Assembly (NCBI GenBank): GCA_038746835.1
Contig: JBCDKH010000008.1
Coordinates: 1-43,188, forward strand
DNA length: 43,188 nucleotides
Reading direction: 5' to 3'
Source: Planctomycetota bacterium
GTDB taxonomy: Bacteria > Planctomycetota > Phycisphaerae > Tepidisphaerales > Tepidisphaeraceae
Below, piece after piece: positions 2-29,395 of the stretch; positions within the stretch are counted from its first letter, which is position 1; each line of letters starts with the position of its first letter. Position numbers and translations under genes: made by a program. A model generated the notes under the pieces. The model had not been told where the DNA came from and made no database searches. It saw nothing but the letters and a program-made list of their open reading frames with translations.

Positions 2-2569
2 GACCCGGCCGAGGTCCCCGACTACCCCGTCGGCACCCAACCCCAGAACGACTACCAGGGCTTCGCCTTCGACTTCGGCCTCAACGAAAGCCCCAACGGT
101 GCAGTCGAATACGGCCTTTCAGGCAGCGGCTCGTTCAACGGCGACCTTGACGGCAAGCTCATCGTCACTCGCTTCAGCGGCAGCGACGACCTCATCGTCC
201 TCGACGTCGACGAGACCGGCGGCATCCGGCAGGGCGTCACCGACATTCCAGGCTTCGACGGCTTCTCCAATCCGCTCGACCTCGCCGAAGGTCCTGGCGG
301 CGTGCTCTATGTCGCACAGTTCGGCGATCGCGAGGGAGAGGTGCCGATGGTCGACCCCAACACACAGCGGATCACGCTGCTCCGACCCGTCGCCGCCGGC
401 GGCGAGGCGAGTGTCGACAGGCGCCGCATCTTCATCGATGCCGCCGCCAACACGTCCGAAGAGCGACCGCTCACCGTCCGCAACCTCGGCACCGAGCCGC
501 TGGTCGTCTCGCCCTACACGCTCGGCCTGACCGGACCCGACAAGGACCTGTTCGAGTTCGTCAACGCCCCGACCCAGGCGACCGCCGTCCAGCCGGGCGA
601 AGAGATCAGCTTCACCGTCCGCTTCAACGCCCCGGCCGGCGCGAGCGACGGCGACACCTTCGAGGCCCTCGCCTTCGTCCGCACCAGCGACCCCGACGCT
701 CCGGAAGTCGGCAGCAGCGTCACCGGCGTCGTCAAGCGCGGCGACGGCGGGGCGAACGAGCCTTCGCTCCAGCAGATCTTCGACTACTACGACCTCGGCA
801 TCACCACCGGCGACCCCGATCCGACAACCACCGAGATCACCCTCAGCCAGCTCGGCGGCCTGTCGACGCAGCTCTTCCAGCCGGCCAACCCCGACAAGCC
901 CGTCGCCATCGACGTCATCGCCAGCTTCAGCCCCGACGGCAACCCCGTCCTCAGCTACGGCTTCTACCAGCCCGGCCGAGGCGAGGCCCAGACCAAGCTC
1001 GGCGAGGTCTTCACCGACCAGGGCCTCGACCCGCTGGTCACCGGACCCGACAAGTTCTTCCCAGGCGGCACCTTCGGCCTCTACGCCAAGAGCCCGGCCT
1101 TCGGCGATGTGATCGGCCCCGGCATCTCCGACACCCGCGGCCGGACCGCTTACTCCGAGGCCGTCCTCAACATTTGGGAACCCACGCCCGGCGAGCGCGA
1201 CAAGGTCGCCGTCTACGAGATTCCCGGCGTCGAGAACGCGCTGGCCGTCAGCTTCGAAGAGTTCGAGTTCGCCGACGACTACAACGACATCGTCCTCGTC
1301 ATGACCAACGTCGAGCCCGCCGCCCAGGCACCAGGCCGACTCGCCGTCACGAGCAACGGCGCCGACGAAGGCCTCGAACGCCTGATCTTCTCCGAGATCG
1401 ATCCCGCCGGGCAAGATCCGAACGCCGCGACGCAGCTCACCCGACAGTCGCGCACGTTCGAACTCGCCAACGCCGGCAACTCATCGCTGACCGTCACCGG
1501 CGTGACCGCGCCGGACGGCTTCGCCGCGACCAACCTCGTCGGCACCTCCCTCACCCCTGGCCAGACCGCCGCCTTCCAGATCGACTTCACCGCCACCAAC
1601 GAGGGCAGCCGACAGGGCATCTACGAAGGCGACATCGTCATCGAACACACCGGCGGCTCCTTCACGCTCCCCGTCGCCGGCTACTGGATGCCCTACAGCG
1701 AGGACAACTCCTTCAGTGGCATGGGCAGCGTCAACGAAGAGCCCATCCTCGACGACATGATCGAGATCCTCGGCCTGACGACCGACGTCGGCACCGAGGC
1801 CGAGCGTCTCACCGGCACGTCCGACCCCGTTGGCGACGAAGTGATCAGCTTCTACTGGCAGGCCGCCCAGCAAGACCTGCCCGTCGAGGTCTACCAGATG
1901 GCCGCCTTCCACAACACCGGCTTTGCCGACCAGATCTTCTGGTTCCCACGCGACGGCTCCACCAGCGAAGCCACCGCGTCGGCCAACAGCGTCTCGATCT
2001 TCCAGCACGACGCCAACGCCGCCCAGAGCTTCCTCCCCGCCATCCGCAACGGCACCGAACCCGCCGCCGGCACATTCGAGCCTGGCGATGAGGTCTTCGG
2101 CTTCCGCGTCGTCAACGAATACAGCGTCGATGACTTCAACGACGACAACTTCGGCTCCGCCGGCGACGACCTGCACCTTTTCCGCTTCTTCCCCGTCAAG
2201 GACAGCCGCGGCCGCATCGTCGAAGACACCTGGCTGGTGACGATGGACTTCACCGGCTTCAACTTCGACTACAACGACAACGTCTACATCGTCAAGAACA
2301 TCGAACCCGCCGACCAGACCCCGTCCCCCGTCGGCGTGACCGCCCAGCGCAACGGCAGCGACGCCACCGTCTACTTCGCCGTGCCGAGCGAGGCCGAACG
2401 CGTCGCCATCTTCCGCAGCGACAACGGCGGGGCGTTCACCCAGCTCACCACCCTCGGCGGCCAGGGCTTCTTCGAACTTGACGGCGTCGACGACGACACG
2501 GTCCTCCGCATCACCACCCTCGACGCCACCGGCAACCCCGGCACTTTCAGCGAAGTACGCCTGGTGTAA
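2..2569 (+). CDS. Large secreted multidomain protein, 3' part (start lies before the window)
   Basis: The reading frame is open from the first bases to a TAA stop, so 855 residues of a longer protein are visible and the start is missing. The first ~125 residues look like the end of a beta-propeller (repeated Asp/Gly turns, LIVTRFSGSDDLIVLD, GVLYVAQFGD). Two Ig-like 'choice-of-anchor D' type domains follow (about residues 135-245 and 455-560), recognisable by LTVRNLGTEPL and by phrases on averaged values and differences. Each is followed by a region with an Asp-rich DYND motif (DDYNDIVLVMTN and FDYNDNVYIVKN), resembling DUF4114-like modules. The last ~80 residues are fibronectin-III-like. There is no PEP-CTERM or LPXTG tail. 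It probably acts outside the cell, perhaps in adhesion or carbohydrate binding. Domain names are from memory of family style, and no catalytic residue can be assigned. Confidence 0.75.
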   Translation, partial: DPAEVPDYPVGTQPQNDYQGFAFDFGLNESPNGAVEYGLSGSGSFNGDLDGKLIVTRFSGSDDLIVLDVDETGGIRQGVTDIPGFDGFSNPLDLAEGPGGVLYVAQFGDREGEVPMVDPNTQRITLLRPVAAGGEASVDRRRIFIDAAANTSEERPLTVRNLGTEPLVVSPYTLGLTGPDKDLFEFVNAPTQATAVQPGEEISFTVRFNAPAGASDGDTFEALAFVRTSDPDAPEVGSSVTGVVKRGDGGANEPSLQQIFDYYDLGITTGDPDPTTTEITLSQLGGLSTQLFQPANPDKPVAIDVIASFSPDGNPVLSYGFYQPGRGEAQTKLGEVFTDQGLDPLVTGPDKFFPGGTFGLYAKSPAFGDVIGPGISDTRGRTAYSEAVLNIWEPTPGERDKVAVYEIPGVENALAVSFEEFEFADDYNDIVLVMTNVEPAAQAPGRLAVTSNGADEGLERLIFSEIDPAGQDPNAATQLTRQSRTFELANAGNSSLTVTGVTAPDGFAATNLVGTSLTPGQTAAFQIDFTATNEGSRQGIYEGDIVIEHTGGSFTLPVAGYWMPYSEDNSFSGMGSVNEEPILDDMIEILGLTTDVGTEAERLTGTSDPVGDEVISFYWQAAQQDLPVEVYQMAAFHNTGFADQIFWFPRDGSTSEATASANSVSIFQHDANAAQSFLPAIRNGTEPAAGTFEPGDEVFGFRVVNEYSVDDFNDDNFGSAGDDLHLFRFFPVKDSRGRIVEDTWLVTMDFTGFNFDYNDNVYIVKNIEPADQTPSPVGVTAQRNGSDATVYFAVPSEAERVAIFRSDNGGAFTQLTTLGGQGFFELDGVDDDTVLRITTLDATGNPGTFSEVRLV

Positions 2570-16759: not shown

Positions 16760-17185
16760 ATGACGACGCTGCAGATTCACGACCAGACCCTCGACGGCCA
16801 GCGCGATGCTGCTCCGACGGAGCTGACCTTCGATGGGCTGGCCGAGACGGTGACCGTCCGCGAGCTGATCCGGGCCCGCGTCTACCAGGAGGCCGACGAC
16901 CACAACCGCCGCGTCCGCGAGGCCAATGCCGGTGCCCAGCCGTACGGCGGCCTCGTCACGCCCGCCGACGCCGAACGCGAGCTCAACGGCCCGAAGCACG
17001 GCCGGCTACTGGCCAAGGAGGTCGACTGGCGCAAGCAGTTCGACGCCGCAATCGACGCGTTCGAGCGGAACGGCTTTCTGATTCTGGTCGATGACGAACA
17101 GTTAACCGACCTCGACGCCGCGATCACGCTCGGCCCGAGCACCGACGTCGCATTTGTTCGGCTCACCATGTTGGTGGGAGGCTGA
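16760..17185 (+). CDS. Small acidic partner gene of DUF4132, unknown function
   Basis: A 141-residue cytoplasmic protein starting at MTTLQIHDQT. It contains an acidic, Arg-rich helical middle (VRELIRARVYQEADDHNRRV) and ends with VTF-like strand VAFVRLTMLVGG. No signal peptide or membrane segment is present. It is only 4 bases upstream of the DUF4132 gene, and pairing of a small protein with DUF4132 is a pattern I have seen, so the two probably work together. The start was set at the ATG at 16760; an open extension to 16679 is Ser/Pro-rich and unlikely. Function unknown. Confidence 0.7.
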   Translation: MTTLQIHDQTLDGQRDAAPTELTFDGLAETVTVRELIRARVYQEADDHNRRVREANAGAQPYGGLVTPADAERELNGPKHGRLLAKEVDWRKQFDAAIDAFERNGFLILVDDEQLTDLDAAITLGPSTDVAFVRLTMLVGG

Positions 17186-17189
17186 GGCG

Positions 17190-19847
17190 ATGGGGGAACA
17201 AAACCTGCCGCCGTTGACCGTCTACGACGAGCCGCGACCCTGGTCGCCGGAGGCAGCTGACTTGGTTCAGCAGGTTTGGCCCGGCCCGCGGCCATTGCTC
17301 GATGAGGCTTTCGCGAAAGCGGATCAGTTCCACGCACGCGTCGAGCTCTTTCCTTACGCCGAGCTGGCATCAGAATACGAGCGTCTTGCGCATCTCCTGA
17401 GAAAGCTCATCGATGACCGGCTGAGCGCCCATTCGTCATTTGTCGGCGACATGGAATCCTACAAGAGCTTAATCAAGAGCTCGAAGCAATCATTTACCAC
17501 CCGAACGCTTCTAGCCGCAGAGCATCTCGGTAGGTGGTTGTGGCAGACGCCGCTGATCGACAGATCCTGGAAGTCTGATACTCGAACGGTGGCAATTGCG
17601 TGGTCCGAAGTGACACGGGCACTCGATGACCTGCGGCAGCGTCTCTGGTCGCGTCGAAGCGTGCCTCCTTTACGAGAGCTTACTGCATTGATTGCTGTCG
17701 CGAAGCACTTTCATCGAGAGCGAAGTGACTGGCCGTATGCGAGTAAGGAGTCAGTCAGCGTCTCGAGGCTGATCATCGCGTACTGGAGAAGTCACGGCGA
17801 CATAGATTCTCAGACTCGCCAAGAGGCACAACGTCTTCGAGACCTAGTCTCTGACTGCCACTATGCCGGTACGGACGTTCGAAAGCTTCAACACGATTTT
17901 GAGGAGTTGCTGGGTGATGAGACGTTCGAACTAGTCGGCGGCGACGTCTGGTCGGACACACTTAGCGCAGACACAGAACACTCCTCGACCTGGCAGGCAC
18001 TGCTGCGATTCTGCCGAACGGTCAACGTGACAAAGGCGTCCAAGCCGTGGATGAAGCAGGCCCGTCCGCTGGTCGAGGCGGTTGGGCAAACGTCGGTCTC
18101 CGACGCGGTCCGACGCTGGTTTCCGCTCGTGGGCCTGGCCGGATCGGTAGAACGCCAGTGGAACGGCTACCTCGACGACCCATCACGCTCGGTGCCGCTC
18201 TTCGACAACCAGGCTGTCCTGGCCGGACTCGCCTGGGCGGCGTGCTCGGGGTGTGATGATCCGCCGTTGACGGCAGTGGCCGACGCTGCGGCGAAGTGTT
18301 ACCAAAACATTCCGAAGGTCGGCGTTCGTTGCGAGTCGCTGGGCAACAGCTTCGTCCGCGCGATCGCAAACACATCGACCCGCGACGCGGCCGTGCAGCT
18401 GCTGCGTTTGGAGCACCTCGTTCGCCAGCCGAAACACCGCAAGACCATCAACAAGGCAGTCGCCAAGCTGTGCGAGGACCTCGGCGAGGAGCGTGCCACA
18501 CTCGAAGAGGCGGCGGTGCCCGACTACGGCTTGGTCGACGGGAGCGTGCGCGAACGAGTCGCCGATGCAGAAGCCGAGCTGACCGTCGCTCCGCGCGATC
18601 GAGTTGTGGTCGCTTGGAGTTATGTCGACGGCAAGGGTCGGTCCAAGACGTCCCGATCGGCACCGAAGGCTGTCCGCGACTCGGAGCCCGAAGCCGTCGA
18701 AGCTATCAAGCGAAAGGCGAAGGAGATCGAGTCGCTTCTCCCGGCTCAGAGGTCGCGGCTGGAGCTAATGCTCCGCGAGACGCGCACGTGGCGATTCGAT
18801 GCCTGGCGGTCCGCATACCTGGACCATGGCCTCGTCGGGACGGTTGCCCGCCGCCTCATCTGGTCGATCGATGGCATTGAGGTCGTCTGGATCGACGGAA
18901 GGCTTCACGACGTCGCAGGCAAGCCGATCGAGTTCGCGGCAACAGCAAAAGTGCAACTGTGGCACCCGATTACGGCCAAGGCAGACGACGTACTTCGATG
19001 GCGACAGCGGCTCGAAGCAACGGGCGTGACGCAGCCGTTCAAGCAGGCGCATCGGGAGGTTTACGTCCTGACGGATGCCGAGCGTCAGACGAGTGTCTAC
19101 TCGAATCGCTTTGCGGCACACATTCTGAAGACGCCGACACTCGTCGCGGTGGCCCAGAAACGTCGCTGGGTGGTCGGGCTCTTCGGCGGCGAATCGTCAC
19201 CGAAGACAGAGCTGCCCGCGTGGAACATGCGAGCAGAGTTCTGGGTCGACGAAGCCGATGTCGGCGACGGTGATCAGGATGATGGATACAGCTTCGGCCC
19301 GAGTTACCTCGCGACGGATCAGGTTCGGTTCCATGAGCTCGGCGAGCAGGACCCGATGCCGCTGGATCGCGTGCCTCCCGTCGTGCTGAGCGAGGTGATG
19401 CGAGATGTCGACCTCTTCGTCGGCCTCGCAAGCGTCGGCAACGACCCGCAGTGGCGCGACCGTGGCGTTGAGCAACGCTACCGAGACTACTGGCACGACT
19501 TCTCCTTCGGCGACCTTGGCCAGACGGCTCAGACGCGGAAGGCGGTGTTGGAGAAGCTCATCCCGCGGTTGAAGATCGCGGAGCGCTGCTCGTTCTCCGA
19601 CAAGTTCCTCGTCGTTCACGGGGACGTGCGGACGTACAAGATCCACCTCGGCAGCGGCAACATTCTCATGGAGCCGAATGATCAGTACCTCTGCATCGTG
19701 CCCGACAGGCGGGCGGAGGCGGCGACGGAAAAGAGCTACCTGCCGTTCGAGGGCGACCGCACGATGAGCGTCATCGTCAGCAAAGCGCTGCTGCTGGCGG
19801 ATGACACGAAGATTACGGATTCGACGATCATTTCTCAGATTCGCTGA
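17190..19847 (+). CDS. DUF4132 domain protein
   Basis: A predicted 885-residue cytoplasmic protein, with the ATG at 17190 preceded by GGGAGG. The N-terminal half is helical (repeat-like) and has no motif I recognise. The C-terminal ~350 residues are a DUF4132 domain: LVGTVARRLIWSIDG, VYVLTDAERQTSVYSNRFAAHIL, LFVGLASVGNDPQW and the end SKALLLADDTKITDSTI are diagnostic phrases. DUF4132 occurs in MolR-like regulatory proteins, and its activity is unknown. The stretch about 17400-18000 uses more A+T-rich codons than the rest of the gene, suggesting mosaic origin. It follows its small partner by 4 bases. Confidence 0.88.
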   Translation: MGEQNLPPLTVYDEPRPWSPEAADLVQQVWPGPRPLLDEAFAKADQFHARVELFPYAELASEYERLAHLLRKLIDDRLSAHSSFVGDMESYKSLIKSSKQSFTTRTLLAAEHLGRWLWQTPLIDRSWKSDTRTVAIAWSEVTRALDDLRQRLWSRRSVPPLRELTALIAVAKHFHRERSDWPYASKESVSVSRLIIAYWRSHGDIDSQTRQEAQRLRDLVSDCHYAGTDVRKLQHDFEELLGDETFELVGGDVWSDTLSADTEHSSTWQALLRFCRTVNVTKASKPWMKQARPLVEAVGQTSVSDAVRRWFPLVGLAGSVERQWNGYLDDPSRSVPLFDNQAVLAGLAWAACSGCDDPPLTAVADAAAKCYQNIPKVGVRCESLGNSFVRAIANTSTRDAAVQLLRLEHLVRQPKHRKTINKAVAKLCEDLGEERATLEEAAVPDYGLVDGSVRERVADAEAELTVAPRDRVVVAWSYVDGKGRSKTSRSAPKAVRDSEPEAVEAIKRKAKEIESLLPAQRSRLELMLRETRTWRFDAWRSAYLDHGLVGTVARRLIWSIDGIEVVWIDGRLHDVAGKPIEFAATAKVQLWHPITAKADDVLRWRQRLEATGVTQPFKQAHREVYVLTDAERQTSVYSNRFAAHILKTPTLVAVAQKRRWVVGLFGGESSPKTELPAWNMRAEFWVDEADVGDGDQDDGYSFGPSYLATDQVRFHELGEQDPMPLDRVPPVVLSEVMRDVDLFVGLASVGNDPQWRDRGVEQRYRDYWHDFSFGDLGQTAQTRKAVLEKLIPRLKIAERCSFSDKFLVVHGDVRTYKIHLGSGNILMEPNDQYLCIVPDRRAEAATEKSYLPFEGDRTMSVIVSKALLLADDTKITDSTIISQIR

Positions 19848-20917: not shown

Positions 20918-23149
20918 ATGTCCACCACTGCCGCCGCTGACGCACGAATCACGACCAATGGACGCTGTCCCGTCATGGGCATTTCAGGCCTCGCCCTCGG
21001 CAAGTCCGGCTACGCCAACAAGGACTGGTGGCCCGATCAGCTCGACGTCGGCATCCTCCACCAGCACGGCGGCAAGGCCAGCCCGATGGCGGACGATTTC
21101 GACTACGCCAAGGCGTTCGAGTCGCTGGATTTGGCGGAGGTGAAGAAGGACATCGAGAAGGTGCTGACGACCAGCGTCGACTGGTGGCCGGCCGACTTCG
21201 GGCACTACGGGCCGTTCATGATCCGCATGGCGTGGCACGCGGCCGGCACGTATCGCACGGCTGACGGTCGCGGCGGCAGCGGGTCGGGCATGTTGCGTTT
21301 CGCGCCGCTCAACTCCTGGCCTGACAACGCGAACCTCGACAAGGCGCGCCGGCTCATCTGGCCGGTGAAGCAGAAGTACGGCAGCAAGCTGTCGTGGGGT
21401 GATCTCATGATCCTGACCGGCAACGTCGCGATCGAGTCGATGGGCCTGCCGACGTTCGGCTTCGGCGGCGGACGCGTCGACCGGTGGGAGCCGGACGATG
21501 GCATCTACTGGGGCCCGGAACAAGAGTGGCTCGCCGACAAGCGGTACGACGGCAAAGAGCCCGGCAAGCGCATGCTCGAAACGCCGCTCGGTGCCGTGCA
21601 GATGGGCCTGATTTACGTCAACCCGCAGGGCAGCAACGGTCGACACGATCCGAAGGAGTCGGCACACGACATCCGCGAGACGTTCGGCCGAATGGCGATG
21701 AACGACTACGAGACCGTCGCGCTCGTCGCCGGTGGGCACACGTTCGGCAAGTCGCACGCGGCGGCCGAGCCGGCAATGCACGTCGGGCCCGAGCCGGAGA
21801 GCGCCGCGATCGCCGATCAGGGCTTCGGCTGGCGCAACTCGTTCGAATCGGGTCGCGGTGCCCACACGATCACGAGCGAGATGGAAGGCGTCTGGACGAG
21901 CAAGCCGACGCAGTGGGACAACGACTACCTCGACAAGCTCTTCAAGTACGACTGGCAACAGACGCGTTCGCCCGCGGGTGCCGTGCAGTGGGAGCCGGTC
22001 GGCGACGTCGATGAGAGCGACCTCGTGCCCGACGCGCACGACCCGAGCAAGAAGCACAAGCCGATGATGTTCACGACGGACCTCTCGCTGAAGGAGGATC
22101 CGTCGTACAAGGAGATTTCGAGGCATTTCCAGCAGAATCCCGAAGAGTTCGGCCAGGCATTCGCCAAGGCGTGGTACAAGCTGACCCACCGCGACATGGG
22201 CCCGCACGAGCGTCTGCTCGGGCCGGAAGTGCCCGAGCCGCAGCTTTGGCAGGATCCGGTACCCGCGGTCGAAGGCGAGCTCGTCAACGACGAGGACGTC
22301 AAGCAGCTCAAGGCGAAGCTGCTCGACAGCGGCCTGACCACGGCCCAGCTCGTCTCGACGGCTTGGGCAGCAGCGTCGAGCTTCCGCGGCACCGACAAGC
22401 GCGGCGGAGCCAACGGCGGTCGCATTCGTCTCGAGCCACAGAAATCCTGGACGATCAATCAACCCGACGAGCTCGCGAAGGTTCTGCCGGTGTTGGAGAA
22501 AGTCGCCGACGACTGGAACGCGTCGAGCGACCGCAAGATCAGCTTCGCCGACACCGTCGTTCTCGGCGGATGTGCCGGCGTCGAATCGGCGGCAAAGCAG
22601 GGCGGCGTTGACGTGACCGTGCCATTCCGTCCGGGTCGGACCGATGCGTCGCAGGAGCACACCGATGTCGACTCGTTCAACGTGCTCGAAATCACGGCCG
22701 ACGGTTTCCGCAACTACATCTCATCCGACCACACGAAGCCGGCCCACGAGCTGCTCATCGATCGGGCCCACCTGCTCAACCTGACCGCGCCGGAAATGAC
22801 GGCGCTTGTCGGCGGACTGCGCGTCCTCGGCACCAACGTCGGTCACCCGACGCTCGGCCTGTTCACCGAACGCCCGGGGACGCTGAGCAACGACTTCTTC
22901 GTCAACCTGCTCGACATGCAGTACGAGTGGGGCGTCAGCACCATGTGCGACCACTTCTACGAGGGCAAGCACCGCGAGACGGGCGAGACCAAGTGGATGG
23001 GCACGAGCGTCGACTTGCTCTTCGGCAGCAACAGCATCTTGCGGGCGCTTGCAGAGGTCTACGCGAGCGACGATGCCGGCGAAATGTTTATCCACGACTT
23101 CATCACAGCGTGGAACAAGGTGATGGAACTCGATCGATTCGACCGTTGA
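20918..23149 (+). CDS. katG: Catalase-peroxidase KatG
   Basis: A 743-residue bifunctional haem enzyme that removes hydrogen peroxide. The ATG at 20918 gives the expected N-terminus; the open extension upstream is Arg-rich and spurious. The N-terminal catalytic half shows distal Arg103, Trp106 and His107 ([13 protein letters not shown]), proximal His274 ([12 protein letters not shown]), and the partners of the Met-Tyr-Trp adduct, Trp106, Tyr233 (LIYVNPQG) and Met259 (GRMAMNDY). The C-terminal half is the usual inactive gene-duplicated domain. It lies 76 bases upstream of the crtY-blh fusion on the same strand, so a shared stress or light response is conceivable, but no shared promoter is proven. 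Confidence 0.97.
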
Positions 23150-23225: not shown

Positions 23226-25463
23226 ATGGTCGGCAACACAGTGCAGGAGTCGTCGTCTTATCCCGGCACGTGTGCCGTCGATGTTTTGATCATCGGCGGC
23301 GGTTGCGCGGGACTGGCGCTGGCACACCGCTTGGAGTCGTCGTCGCTGAGCGTTGCAGTCGTCGAGCCGCGCACTGACTACGGTCGCGATCGCACTTGGT
23401 GTTTCTGGCTCGACGAATCGCCCGACCGGCGTGATCCTGCCGACGCGATTCCGGAAGTCGTTCGCAAGAACATCCGCTGGCGATGGTCCAAGTGGGCCGT
23501 CGACGGCGGGATGGGTGATGCGGTGATTCGGTCAATGCCCGGGCTCTCGTATGCCGGGCTCACGGCGACCGACTACTACGACGCGATCCTTCCGACGCTC
23601 AAGAAGACCACGCTCTATCGCGGCTGGTCTGCAGACCGTGTCGACGCGACCGGTGCTCGGATCCGTCGAGATGGCGAGTCGGTCGAGCTCGCAGCGCGAT
23701 TCGTCGTCGACACTCGTCCGCCCGCGAGCTACAGGCCCAACCCGACGACGCGTGAGTCGGTCGGCGCTTCGGACGGCGACGAAGACCTGATTCAGCAGTT
23801 CGTCGGCCGAACGTTCCGAGGCAAGCTGGATCAGTCGCTCGCGACCGTGATGCAGTTCGACGAGGACTCCGAGACAGAGACCGGGCTCGCGTTCCTCTAC
23901 GTCCTGCCCGTCGGCGACGACGAAGTGCTGGTCGACTGGACTGGCATGCTCCGAGCCCCGCTGGCATGGAGCGAGGCAGAAGCACGGCTCATCGAAGGGG
24001 TCCAAAAGCACTACCCACAGCTCGAGCTCGACGAGGACGGCTACGCCGAGTCGGGCCTGTTGCCGATGTCGTCGGCGAGCGATGTTCGACCCAAAGACGA
24101 CGGCATCGTCCGCCTCGGCATTCGCGGCGGCGCGTGCCGGCCGAGCACCGGTTACGCCTTCCTCCAGATCCAACGCCAAGCGCAAAAGCTGGCGGACGAA
24201 CTGACGCACCGCGACGACCTTGTGGCACCTGCACCAGCTGGCCGGAGTCGCTGGCTTCAGCTCCTCGATCACATTTTCGTTCGCAAGCTGCGCAAGGAGC
24301 CCGAAGCCTTCCCAGGCCTGTTTGCAAGGCTTTTCCGCCAAGTCCGGCCGGACCGGCTAGCTCGCTTCTTATCGGACGTCCCGACCGCGCGCGATGGAGC
24401 CTCGGTCGTCATGGCGATGCCGAAGCTTCCATTTGCCAAAGAAGCGATCGCTGGGCTTGGCGTCGTACGTCGAATCAAGTCGATTGACTGGCAGTCGCAC
24501 CGCCGCCTGGCCGTTCCGGTCACGGCGGTGTTGACGTTGGTTCTCGTCGGCCTGCTGCAGTGGCTGTCGATTCCAGCAACTGTCCAGGTCGGCCTGCTCG
24601 CGATTGCGGCAGCCGTCGGCATGGCGCATGGTGCGACGGACGTCTGGGTCGGACGCCGACTCTTCGGCAACACCGCTCAAGGGCGTGCGCGATTCGGCCA
24701 GCTGTATGTCGCACTCGCAGCGGCAGCGGTGGGGCTGTACCTCCTCGCGCCCGGCGTCTGGCTCGTCGGTTTCCTCGCACTGTCTCTACTGCACTTTGGC
24801 TTCGGCGAGTTGCCTTCGCTGACACCGCGATCGATCGGCGAGGGCGTCGAGTCGCTTGTCCGCGGGCTGATGCCGATCGCCTTGCCGGCTCTGATCTTTG
24901 CCGGCGACGTGCAGTTCGCACTCGCCGCGATCGCGCCGTCGTCCGCCGCGATCGTGACATCGACGCTCGCGTTCCTCGCCGTGCCGACGTTGTTGGCTGT
25001 GGGCGTGCTCCTCGTGGTGGACGTGGCAGCCAGACGCTGGCTGTCCGCCGCAGAACTCGTGGCCGTCGCGGCGTTGTTGGTCTTCGTGCCGCCGCTTTTG
25101 GCGTTCGCTGTCTACTTCGCCCTCTGGCATTCGACGCGGCACCTGCTGAGCGACGTCATCGACGCTCCGGCCGGTGGTGCCGAGCGTCCGATCGCACCTG
25201 TCGTCTTCGCAACGATTGCCCCGGTCGCCGGTGCATTGATCATTTGGCCGTTGCTTTGGGCATCGCCTTTGGCTGGCGGCGCTCTGTCGGCAACGTCTGC
25301 AGCGATTCGCGTCGTGTTCGTCACGCTGGGCTGCCTGACGGTCCCGCACATGCTTCTCGTTTTCGTCGCCGCTCGCCGCCACGTGGTGGCACAGCAGCAG
25401 GCGACGTCATCCGTTCGGCAGGCCCCTTCGGTCGCCGTTTCACCTTCCGCTCTAACGCTCTAA
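23226..25463 (+). CDS. Fusion of lycopene beta-cyclase (CrtY) and beta-carotene 15,15'-dioxygenase (Brp/Blh)
   Basis: One 745-residue polypeptide. Residues ~18-400 are CrtY: a FAD-binding GGGCAG (24-29) in DVLIIGGGCAGLALAH, the family phrase DRTWCFW, FLYVLPVGDDEVLVDWTG, ESGLLPMSS and STGYAFLQIQ. It would cyclise lycopene to beta-carotene. From ~420 the sequence is a polytopic membrane protein of the Brp/Blh family, which cleaves beta-carotene into two retinals. Its four expected iron-binding histidines are His468 (AHGATD), His523 (LHFGFGE), His635 and His639 (WHSTRH). Their spacing (55, 112, 4) is close to that recalled for Blh of marine bacterium 66A03 (57, 110, 4). The stop is 17 bases before the rhodopsin start, so they form an operon. 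Lycopene-making genes are not in the window. Confidence 0.93.
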   Translation: MVGNTVQESSSYPGTCAVDVLIIGGGCAGLALAHRLESSSLSVAVVEPRTDYGRDRTWCFWLDESPDRRDPADAIPEVVRKNIRWRWSKWAVDGGMGDAVIRSMPGLSYAGLTATDYYDAILPTLKKTTLYRGWSADRVDATGARIRRDGESVELAARFVVDTRPPASYRPNPTTRESVGASDGDEDLIQQFVGRTFRGKLDQSLATVMQFDEDSETETGLAFLYVLPVGDDEVLVDWTGMLRAPLAWSEAEARLIEGVQKHYPQLELDEDGYAESGLLPMSSASDVRPKDDGIVRLGIRGGACRPSTGYAFLQIQRQAQKLADELTHRDDLVAPAPAGRSRWLQLLDHIFVRKLRKEPEAFPGLFARLFRQVRPDRLARFLSDVPTARDGASVVMAMPKLPFAKEAIAGLGVVRRIKSIDWQSHRRLAVPVTAVLTLVLVGLLQWLSIPATVQVGLLAIAAAVGMAHGATDVWVGRRLFGNTAQGRARFGQLYVALAAAAVGLYLLAPGVWLVGFLALSLLHFGFGELPSLTPRSIGEGVESLVRGLMPIALPALIFAGDVQFALAAIAPSSAAIVTSTLAFLAVPTLLAVGVLLVVDVAARRWLSAAELVAVAALLVFVPPLLAFAVYFALWHSTRHLLSDVIDAPAGGAERPIAPVVFATIAPVAGALIIWPLLWASPLAGGALSATSAAIRVVFVTLGCLTVPHMLLVFVAARRHVVAQQQATSSVRQAPSVAVSPSALTL

Positions 25464-25466
25464 TTC

Positions 25467-25472
25467 AGGAGA
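25467..25472 (+). promoter_or_regulatory. Strong ribosome binding site of the rhodopsin gene
   Basis: AGGAGA lies 7 bases before the ATG at 25480. A clear Shine-Dalgarno is unusual among genes of this window, most of which lack one, and suggests high translation of the rhodopsin. Confidence 0.75.
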
Positions 25473-25479
25473 CCTGCCG

Positions 25480-26427
25480 ATGGTCATGGAGAACTTCATC
25501 GTGTTCAGCCCTTGGGCGAACTTCATCATCGCCCACGTGCTGAGCCTTGGAGCTGCAGCCATGTTTGCGGGGCTTGTCTACTTCATCGTCACGGCGAAGC
25601 AGATCAGCCCGAAGTACCGCGTTGCCAACTGGCTCGGCGCGGTCGTCATGGTTTCAGCTGCTCTGGAACTGGGCAACCAGTACATCGTCTGGAAAAGCTC
25701 GATCGTGCCGTTCACCGGTGCCGACGGTGCCACGCTCTTCGCTGTCGGCGAAAACAGCTCGCGCTTCAGCAACGGCTACCGCTACGTGAACTGGTCGATC
25801 GATGTGCCCGTGCTGCTCGCGCAGTTCGTGGTCGTCTTCGGACTCATGGGCAAGAAATTCTGGTCGCCCGTGATTCAGTTCACGATCGCCGGCTTGCTCA
25901 TGATCTACTTCGGTTACATCGGCCAGTTCTTCGAGGCCGTTCCAGAAGCTGGCACTCAGATCGCCGCTGGCGCTAGCAGTGTCGGTGGTGACCTTCTGGC
26001 CAGCAACGTCGGTCAGAACGCGACCTACTGGCTCATGTTTGTCGTGTCCTGCGTCTTCTACCTCTGGATTCTGTACCTGGTGCTCGCGGTCGGCCTGAAC
26101 AAGGACAACCTTGCCAAGCTGCCGCCCAAGGCCCAGGCGTGGATGAAGGCTGTCGTCTGGACGCTCTTCGGATCGTGGATGCTCTACCTCGTCGGCTACC
26201 TCATGCCGGCCGTGAGCATCTCCGAAGAATCTGCCGTGATCCGTCAGATGGCATACACCATCGCCGACATCGTCTCGAAGGTGCTCTACGGCATCATGCT
26301 CGGCTACGTTGCGGTCCTTCGCAGCAACGCCGAGGGTTACAACGAAGACCGACTCGACCGCATTGGTTACGACCAGGGCGGCAAGCAGCTGGGTCAGTAC
26401 GACCCGACGACCGAGGCGACCGCCTGA
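25480..26427 (+). CDS. NDQ-type microbial rhodopsin, predicted light-driven sodium pump (KR2-like)
   Basis: A 315-residue seven-helix retinal protein. Helix C reads GYRYVNWSIDVPVLLAQF: Arg101, then Asn104, Asp108 and Gln115 at the bacteriorhodopsin 85/89/96 positions. This is the NDQ motif of the sodium pump KR2 (N112/D116/Q123). Helix G has TIADIVSKVLYG with Asp263 and the retinal Schiff-base Lys267. The phrases FSNGYRYVNW, GYIGQFFE and YTIADIVSK closely match KR2. Leu112 at the proteorhodopsin-105 site predicts green absorption. Predicted reaction: light-driven outward Na+ transport (H+ when Na+ is scarce). Unusual: a D-E loop about 25 residues longer than in KR2. Ion selectivity is inference from motif, though well supported in the family. 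It lies 17 bases downstream of the retinal-forming fusion. Confidence 0.95.
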   Translation: MVMENFIVFSPWANFIIAHVLSLGAAAMFAGLVYFIVTAKQISPKYRVANWLGAVVMVSAALELGNQYIVWKSSIVPFTGADGATLFAVGENSSRFSNGYRYVNWSIDVPVLLAQFVVVFGLMGKKFWSPVIQFTIAGLLMIYFGYIGQFFEAVPEAGTQIAAGASSVGGDLLASNVGQNATYWLMFVVSCVFYLWILYLVLAVGLNKDNLAKLPPKAQAWMKAVVWTLFGSWMLYLVGYLMPAVSISEESAVIRQMAYTIADIVSKVLYGIMLGYVAVLRSNAEGYNEDRLDRIGYDQGGKQLGQYDPTTEATA

Positions 26428-28179: not shown

Positions 28180-28204
28180 CGTGCCGGATACGCTCCGGGC
28201 AATC

Positions 28205-29395
28205 ATGGAGAACACGAACAAGCCACGACGCGGCAAGCCTCGTCGCCCCGTCGAAGGCGATCACTACAACCGCGGCCAACACGGCTCGGCCCCGCCACGA
28301 GATCTTGAGCAGACCGTTGAGTCGGCCGAGCCCAAAATGAGCGTCCGCCGACGCGACCTGCGCGACGTCGTCCGCACGCTCGATGAGCTCTCTGACGAGC
28401 TGCACGAGCTCCCCAACGGCGACCTCGTCGCTCGCATCGTCCGCACGAGCATCAAGCTGCTTCGCGACGAGACCAATCGCGGCGACGTCAAGCTCATCGA
28501 TAACGCCTTCGCCGAACTGCGCTACGCCCTCAAGGTCTTCGCGCCGTATCGCGATACTCGGAAGATCAGCATCTTCGGCAGCGCCCGCACACCTGAGGCT
28601 GACGCTGACTACAAGGCGGCCGAGGCGTTCGGTCGCGACATGGAGCAGAACGGCTGGATGGTCATCACCGGTGCCGGCGGCGGCATCATGGCGGCAGGCC
28701 ACGGCGGGGCGGGCGCGGAGGGCTCCTTCGGCCTGAACATCTCGCTGCCGTTCGAGCAGTCGGCCAACGAGTTCATTCACGGCGATCCGAAGCTGGTCGA
28801 CTTCAAGTACTTCTTCACGCGCAAGCTGATGTTCGTCCGCTCAAGCCACGCGGTCGCACTCTTCCCCGGCGGCTTCGGGACGATGGACGAGGGCTTCGAA
28901 GTGCTGACGCTCATCCAGACCGGCAAGAGTCCGCCGATGCCGCTGGTCATGGTCGACCACGACGGCAGCGACTACTGGTCCGCGTGGCACGACTACGTCA
29001 AGGACCACCTGCTCCGCGATGGCCTGATCAGCGAGCAAGACCTGTCGCTCTACACGCTCACCCAGGACATCCGCGAGGCCGCGGAGCATTGCCGCAAATT
29101 CTACGAGAACTTCCACTCGCTCCGCTACAGCCGCGACCTGATCATTCTGCGGCTCAAGCACAAGGTGACGGATCAGCAGCTCGGCGACATCAAGGAGCGT
29201 TTCGCCGACATCGCCGACCCTGAGATTGCCGAACGGATTGGCGAGCGGGCATGGCGCAGCTGCGGACCTCTGAAGGTCGAGCGGAACGAGAAGAAGCTCC
29301 GGCATCTGCATCGCCTTGTCTTCCCCTTCAACCGCAAAGATCACGGCCGACTCCGACAGATGATCGATCACCTGAACGATCTGCCGCTGGCGTAG
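28205..29395 (+). CDS. LOG-family nucleotide-binding protein
   Basis: A 396-residue protein. A charged N-terminal extension (~120 residues, Lys/Arg-rich with helices) precedes a Rossmann-like LOG domain. The domain shows ISIFGSARTPEADADY, VITGAGGGIMAAGHGGA and the family motif PGGFGTMDE (221-229). LOG proteins hydrolyse nucleotide monophosphates to bases and include cytokinin-activating enzymes and YgdH-type nucleosidases; the true substrate here is unknown. After the domain, a C-terminal ~90 residues follow. The start was set at the ATG at 28205; an in-frame GTG at 28181 is possible. Some databases label this family 'lysine decarboxylase', which is misleading. Confidence 0.85.
   Translation: MENTNKPRRGKPRRPVEGDHYNRGQHGSAPPRDLEQTVESAEPKMSVRRRDLRDVVRTLDELSDELHELPNGDLVARIVRTSIKLLRDETNRGDVKLIDNAFAELRYALKVFAPYRDTRKISIFGSARTPEADADYKAAEAFGRDMEQNGWMVITGAGGGIMAAGHGGAGAEGSFGLNISLPFEQSANEFIHGDPKLVDFKYFFTRKLMFVRSSHAVALFPGGFGTMDEGFEVLTLIQTGKSPPMPLVMVDHDGSDYWSAWHDYVKDHLLRDGLISEQDLSLYTLTQDIREAAEHCRKFYENFHSLRYSRDLIILRLKHKVTDQQLGDIKERFADIADPEIAERIGERAWRSCGPLKVERNEKKLRHLHRLVFPFNRKDHGRLRQMIDHLNDLPLA

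Follow-up and report, generated by a model that had tools for sequence, protein, structure and literature searches.

The crtY-blh locus

The window, meaning the whole 43,188 nt stretch of planctomycete DNA analysed here, carries a crtY-blh fusion gene and, directly downstream, a rhodopsin gene that begins 16 nt past the stop codon of the fusion. The features of this region are:

23226..25463, + strand: crtY-blh fusion gene, 745 aa (ORF with Pfam and NCBIfam matches)
23280..24440, + strand: CrtY domain, FAD-type lycopene beta-cyclase, aa 19-405 (PF05834, E 4.6e-40)
24441..24521, + strand: junction or linker, aa 406-432 (EAIAGLGVVRRIKSIDWQSHRRLAVPV), about 27 aa, positively charged (alignment with the second fusion; AlphaFold)
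24606..25361, + strand: Blh domain, beta-carotene 15,15'-dioxygenase, aa 461-712 (PF15461, E 8.1e-37; TIGR03753)
24627..25142, + strand: span of the four catalytic His codons (compared with PMC9227343), i.e., H468 at 24627-24629, H523 at 24792-24794, H635 at 25128-25130 and H639 at 25140-25142
25467..25471, + strand: AGGAG, ribosome-binding-like, 8 nt 5' of the rhodopsin ATG at 25480 (sequence)
25480..26427, + strand: NDQ sodium-pump-type rhodopsin gene (PF01036; nearest solved relative ErNaR, 8qle)

The fusion gene is one uninterrupted ORF, running from ATG to TAA with zero internal stops, and its GC content at each codon position shows similar values from end to end, with no break at the junction. 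Besides overlapping FAD-fold matches, the only Pfam domains of the encoded protein (P0001) are PF05834 and PF15461. The natural CrtY-Blh fusion claimed by the sequence-only reading is real: a single 745 aa product carries both domains, and its gene adjoins that of a rhodopsin.

The two enzyme domains

The Blh half scores 127.7 bits against PF15461 (curated Pfam cut-off 28) and 144.7 bits against the NCBIfam model TIGR03753 (blh; cut-off 95.25). The four iron-binding histidines with near-canonical spacing noted in the sequence-only reading are H468, H523, H635 and H639, spaced by 55/112/4 residues compared to 57/110/4 (His21, His78, His188 and His192) in the characterised Blh of 66A03, whose activity falls below 5% when these His are mutated (PMC9227343). 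All four are also present in a second fusion protein, encoded by G016, a genome from a different genus of this family (described below).

The CrtY half matches Lycopene_cycl (PF05834) with 138 bits, well above the curated Pfam cut-off of 23.4, and both of the motifs noticed earlier in this half could be located, the FAD motif GGGCAG at aa 24-29 and DRTWCFW at aa 55-61 of the fusion protein. Its matches to TIGR01790 (89.6 bits vs 209.5) and TIGR01789 (53.2 bits vs 215.2) lie below the NCBIfam cut-offs. By these scores it is a divergent member of the broad PF05834 family, and because it falls short of the two narrower models we can only infer its cyclase activity.

Two acidic positions of the cyclase half have changed in the window protein. 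It has Q210 where separate homologues have the Asp of the LMDF motif (D210 to Q), and D237 where they have the Glu of the VEST/VEWT motif (E237 to D); counted over the CrtY columns of the alignment only, Asp and Glu at these two positions are invariant in all 16 aligned separate CrtY proteins. The G016 fusion retains both. The other listed invariant CrtY residues are kept in the window protein, except for the mild changes L208V and L352V. Given Q210 and D237, the cyclase of the window organism could be slower or altered.

Solved structures were searched by sequence, and neither a lycopene cyclase nor a Blh was among the matches. In a first, weaker AlphaFold model, the CrtY part has a fold similar to those of geranylgeranyl reductases and related FAD enzymes. 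Hydropathy shows a polytopic Blh half and a CrtY part devoid of membrane-spanning helices, except for the region of the FAD-binding strand. A basic linker precedes the first Blh helix, and by the positive-inside rule this fits a cytoplasmic location for the CrtY half.

A second fusion in another genus

G016 encodes a 739 aa fusion with the same domain order. Identity between the two fusion proteins is 48% in the cyclase, 58% across the junction (aa 406-432) and 56% in Blh. The junction is as conserved as the catalytic domains, which argues for continuous translation and for constraint across it. In trees reconstructed for each domain separately, the two fusions are sisters with support of 99-100, deeper placement being uncertain due to long branches. 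Since the two fused proteins are sisters in both trees, the data are consistent with one fusion event followed by joint inheritance of the cassette. A chance ORF was also considered and was rejected, the arrangement being far beyond chance and present a second time in G016.

The adjacent rhodopsin and the genomic surroundings

The best solved relative of the rhodopsin is ErNaR (PDB 8qle, E 3.3e-52). Numbered from the ATG at 25486, its residues include N102, D106 and Q113 (the NDQ motif), the retinal-binding lysine K265, and an extra glutamate, E61, that aligns with E64 of ErNaR at the position of L74 in KR2. This additional Glu defines subgroup 2 of the NDQ sodium pumps (PMC11006869), and by these residues the window rhodopsin is of the NDQ sodium-pump type, subgroup 2. 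The rhodopsin of G016 is 74% identical and also lies next to its fusion gene, its start overlapping the last codons of the fusion (ATG at 1041, fusion stop at 996-998, minus strand of L049). Both fusions are directly upstream of a rhodopsin carrying NDQ and the additional glutamate typical of the ErNaR subgroup. Of the 26 genomes sampled from the family, the same two, and no others, carry rhodopsin (PF01036) and the fusion; these 26 are also the entire sample for the order.

A search of the genome with P0001, which on the cyclase side covers PF05834-type enzymes, found no second CrtY or Blh. Other contigs of the genome carry one SQS_PSY gene and two genes of the crtI/phytoene-desaturase family. 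The SQS_PSY gene scores highest to HpnD, below the cut-off of that model, and is a plausible source of phytoene. Prepilin-like and PEP-CTERM-like proteins are encoded beside one of the desaturase genes and point to Planctomycetota as the probable lineage.

Several other genes lie near the fusions. A KatG-type catalase-peroxidase gene (20951-23149) is directly upstream of the window fusion. The G016 contig stops roughly 1 kb from its own fusion, and no KatG figures in the ORF list covering its first 14 kb. About 2 kb downstream of the window rhodopsin is a SLOG/LOG-type 'lysine decarboxylase-like' gene (28181-29395), and a similar gene is found in G016 (L091, 8390-9523, minus strand), about 5 kb from the fusion and on the opposite side from the rhodopsin; this may hint at a common ancestral locus. 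A large protein with DUF4132 and DUF7737 is encoded at 17154-19847 of the window.

Separate crtY and blh genes elsewhere

The expectation that crtY and blh are separate genes in other organisms held throughout: every other crtY-blh pair examined consists of two genes, and only the window genome and G016 have them fused. A scan of genome contigs matched 30 loci and, wherever the two halves adjoin, they are separate ORFs. The same applies wherever both were seen in four wider samples of genomes, drawn from the class (n = 397, with the Blh half as query), the phylum (n = 392), another class (n = 154) and another order (n = 201). Among viral contigs there were four pattern matches and no relative; phages gave no match, and no plasmid record covered 80% of the query, the rows shown being matches to the CrtY half.

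The separate pairs almost always occupy frames differing by one, and 20 of the 31 tabulated overlap by exactly 4 nt, with the crtY stop lying over the blh start. With such an overlap, a net shift of one base close to the stop codon of crtY is enough to fuse the two. Judged from these arrangements, the fusion most likely arose when a frame change of one nucleotide merged an ancestral crtY and blh that overlapped by 4 nt. Pairs from marine Euryarchaeota MAGs (L009-L026, with others) nearly all show the 4 nt overlap, which suggests translational coupling of the two genes in that group. A member of the same class, G295 (L052, 6440-9553), has the order rhodopsin-blh-crtY and a very divergent CrtY.

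Proposed function

CrtY converts lycopene to beta-carotene by cyclisation, Blh cuts beta-carotene into two retinals, and light-driven sodium-pump rhodopsins require retinal. From the known reactions of the two enzymes, the fusion is expected to turn lycopene into retinal for the rhodopsin next to it. The favoured reading, to which we assign a probability of about 0.78, is that the protein acts as a bifunctional, membrane-anchored lycopene-to-retinal synthase feeding the sodium-pump-type rhodopsin beside it. In its N-terminal, FAD-dependent CrtY half lycopene would be cyclised, the resulting beta-carotene would be cleaved to two retinals in the polytopic Blh half at the C-terminus, and the retinal would load the rhodopsin encoded by the next gene. 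Being fused would guarantee equal amounts and co-location of the cyclase and cleavage steps. Both catalytic activities, the delivery of retinal and a benefit from tethering are what we infer from the genes and their arrangement.

An artefact of assembly or sequencing that joined two adjacent genes is extremely improbable. Both fusion genomes are multi-contig assemblies, but the same fusion occurs in two genera, in sequences only about half identical, with a conserved junction and an unbroken frame, making a hidden stop or frameshift between the halves very unlikely. A better case can be made for a neutral tether, where the halves are independent enzymes joined by a fixed accident of overlapping genes, with no channelling or stoichiometric benefit, and where Blh may also arise alone from an internal start. 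The 4 nt overlaps make fusing a one-step mutation, the AlphaFold linker is of low confidence and the interface not firm, and there are ATG codons near the junction at 24411 and 24417, with GGAG 11 nt before the first; G016 has a Met at the equivalent MPK motif too. Those internal ATGs encode CrtY's own MPK motif, however, and so are expected anyway, and the junction is as well conserved between the two genera (58% identity) as are the catalytic domains. A neutral tether is thus a real possibility, at somewhat less than even odds.

An altered or weakened cyclase half in the window organism (e.g., one that is inactive or forms a monocyclic product), with the protein mainly anchoring or feeding Blh, is unlikely. 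D210Q and E237D do affect positions that are otherwise invariant in the 16 separate proteins, and the sequence search of solved structures yielded no CrtY with which to judge their effect. On the other hand, the change from Glu to Asp is conservative, the remaining listed residues are kept (bar L208V and L352V), neither acidic residue is changed in the G016 fusion, and the P0001 search found no other cyclase of the PF05834 type in the genome.

The synthase reading can be taken a step further, with CrtY handing beta-carotene on to Blh within their common membrane and releasing none, so that retinal is made for one sodium-pumping rhodopsin with no free beta-carotene pool; this is rather doubtful. 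Structure prediction, proposed as a check on the fusion, gave confident CrtY and Blh cores, while the relative placement of the domains is not confident (pTM 0.58): aa 412-434 have pLDDT < 50, no rigid interface is predicted, and the model lends no support to a fixed tunnel between the active sites. The substrate channelling put forward earlier is not supported by this model. Overall, the sequence-only reading stands as regards a natural fusion beside a rhodopsin gene, with separate genes elsewhere, and falls short on channelling. The cyclase-Blh precedent in Thecamonas trahens (below), the sodium-pump type of the rhodopsin and the two changed acidic positions go beyond that reading.

Comparison with known systems

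The fusion is a rare, conserved two-domain arrangement of known enzymes that is tightly coupled to a sodium-pump rhodopsin. It unites the two final steps towards retinal in one gene, next to the retinal-using pump, and offers a natural construct for asking whether CrtY and Blh directly hand over a water-insoluble intermediate. As co-occurrence with rhodopsin is confined to two genera and the genes are separate across the phylum sample, any benefit of fusion is testable against two-gene relatives. Strains built for vitamin A or optogenetics might also use the gene as a single-gene route from lycopene to retinal.

Rhodopsins of freshwater planctomycetes have been reported, without detail of this kind (PMC6461901). 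No report of a FAD-type CrtY-Blh fusion was found in the openly accessible literature searched, and the fusion may be present unremarked among UniProt/InterPro architectures.

The Blh of the uncultured marine bacterium 66A03 has the same four catalytic histidines with matching spacing but is a stand-alone enzyme, whereas the window Blh is fused to CrtY. The window rhodopsin shares the NDQ motif and the additional Glu (E64) with the subgroup 2 pump ErNaR (8qle; PMC11006869), and differs in that its gene comes after one for a fused CrtY-Blh. In rhodopsin-bearing bacteria and marine Euryarchaeota, the separate crtY and blh genes represent the same two domain families in the same crtY-then-blh order, adjacent and often with a 4 nt overlap, but they specify two polypeptides in two reading frames. 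A precedent exists in Thecamonas trahens, where a lycopene cyclase is joined to a C-terminal Blh in one natural protein (PMC10016063). That protein is eukaryotic, uses the unrelated CrtYc/d cyclase and has CrtI and CrtB also aboard, whereas the window fusion is bacterial, consists of a FAD-type CrtY (PF05834) and Blh only, and falls outside the CrtI-CrtB-CrtYc/d-Blh type.
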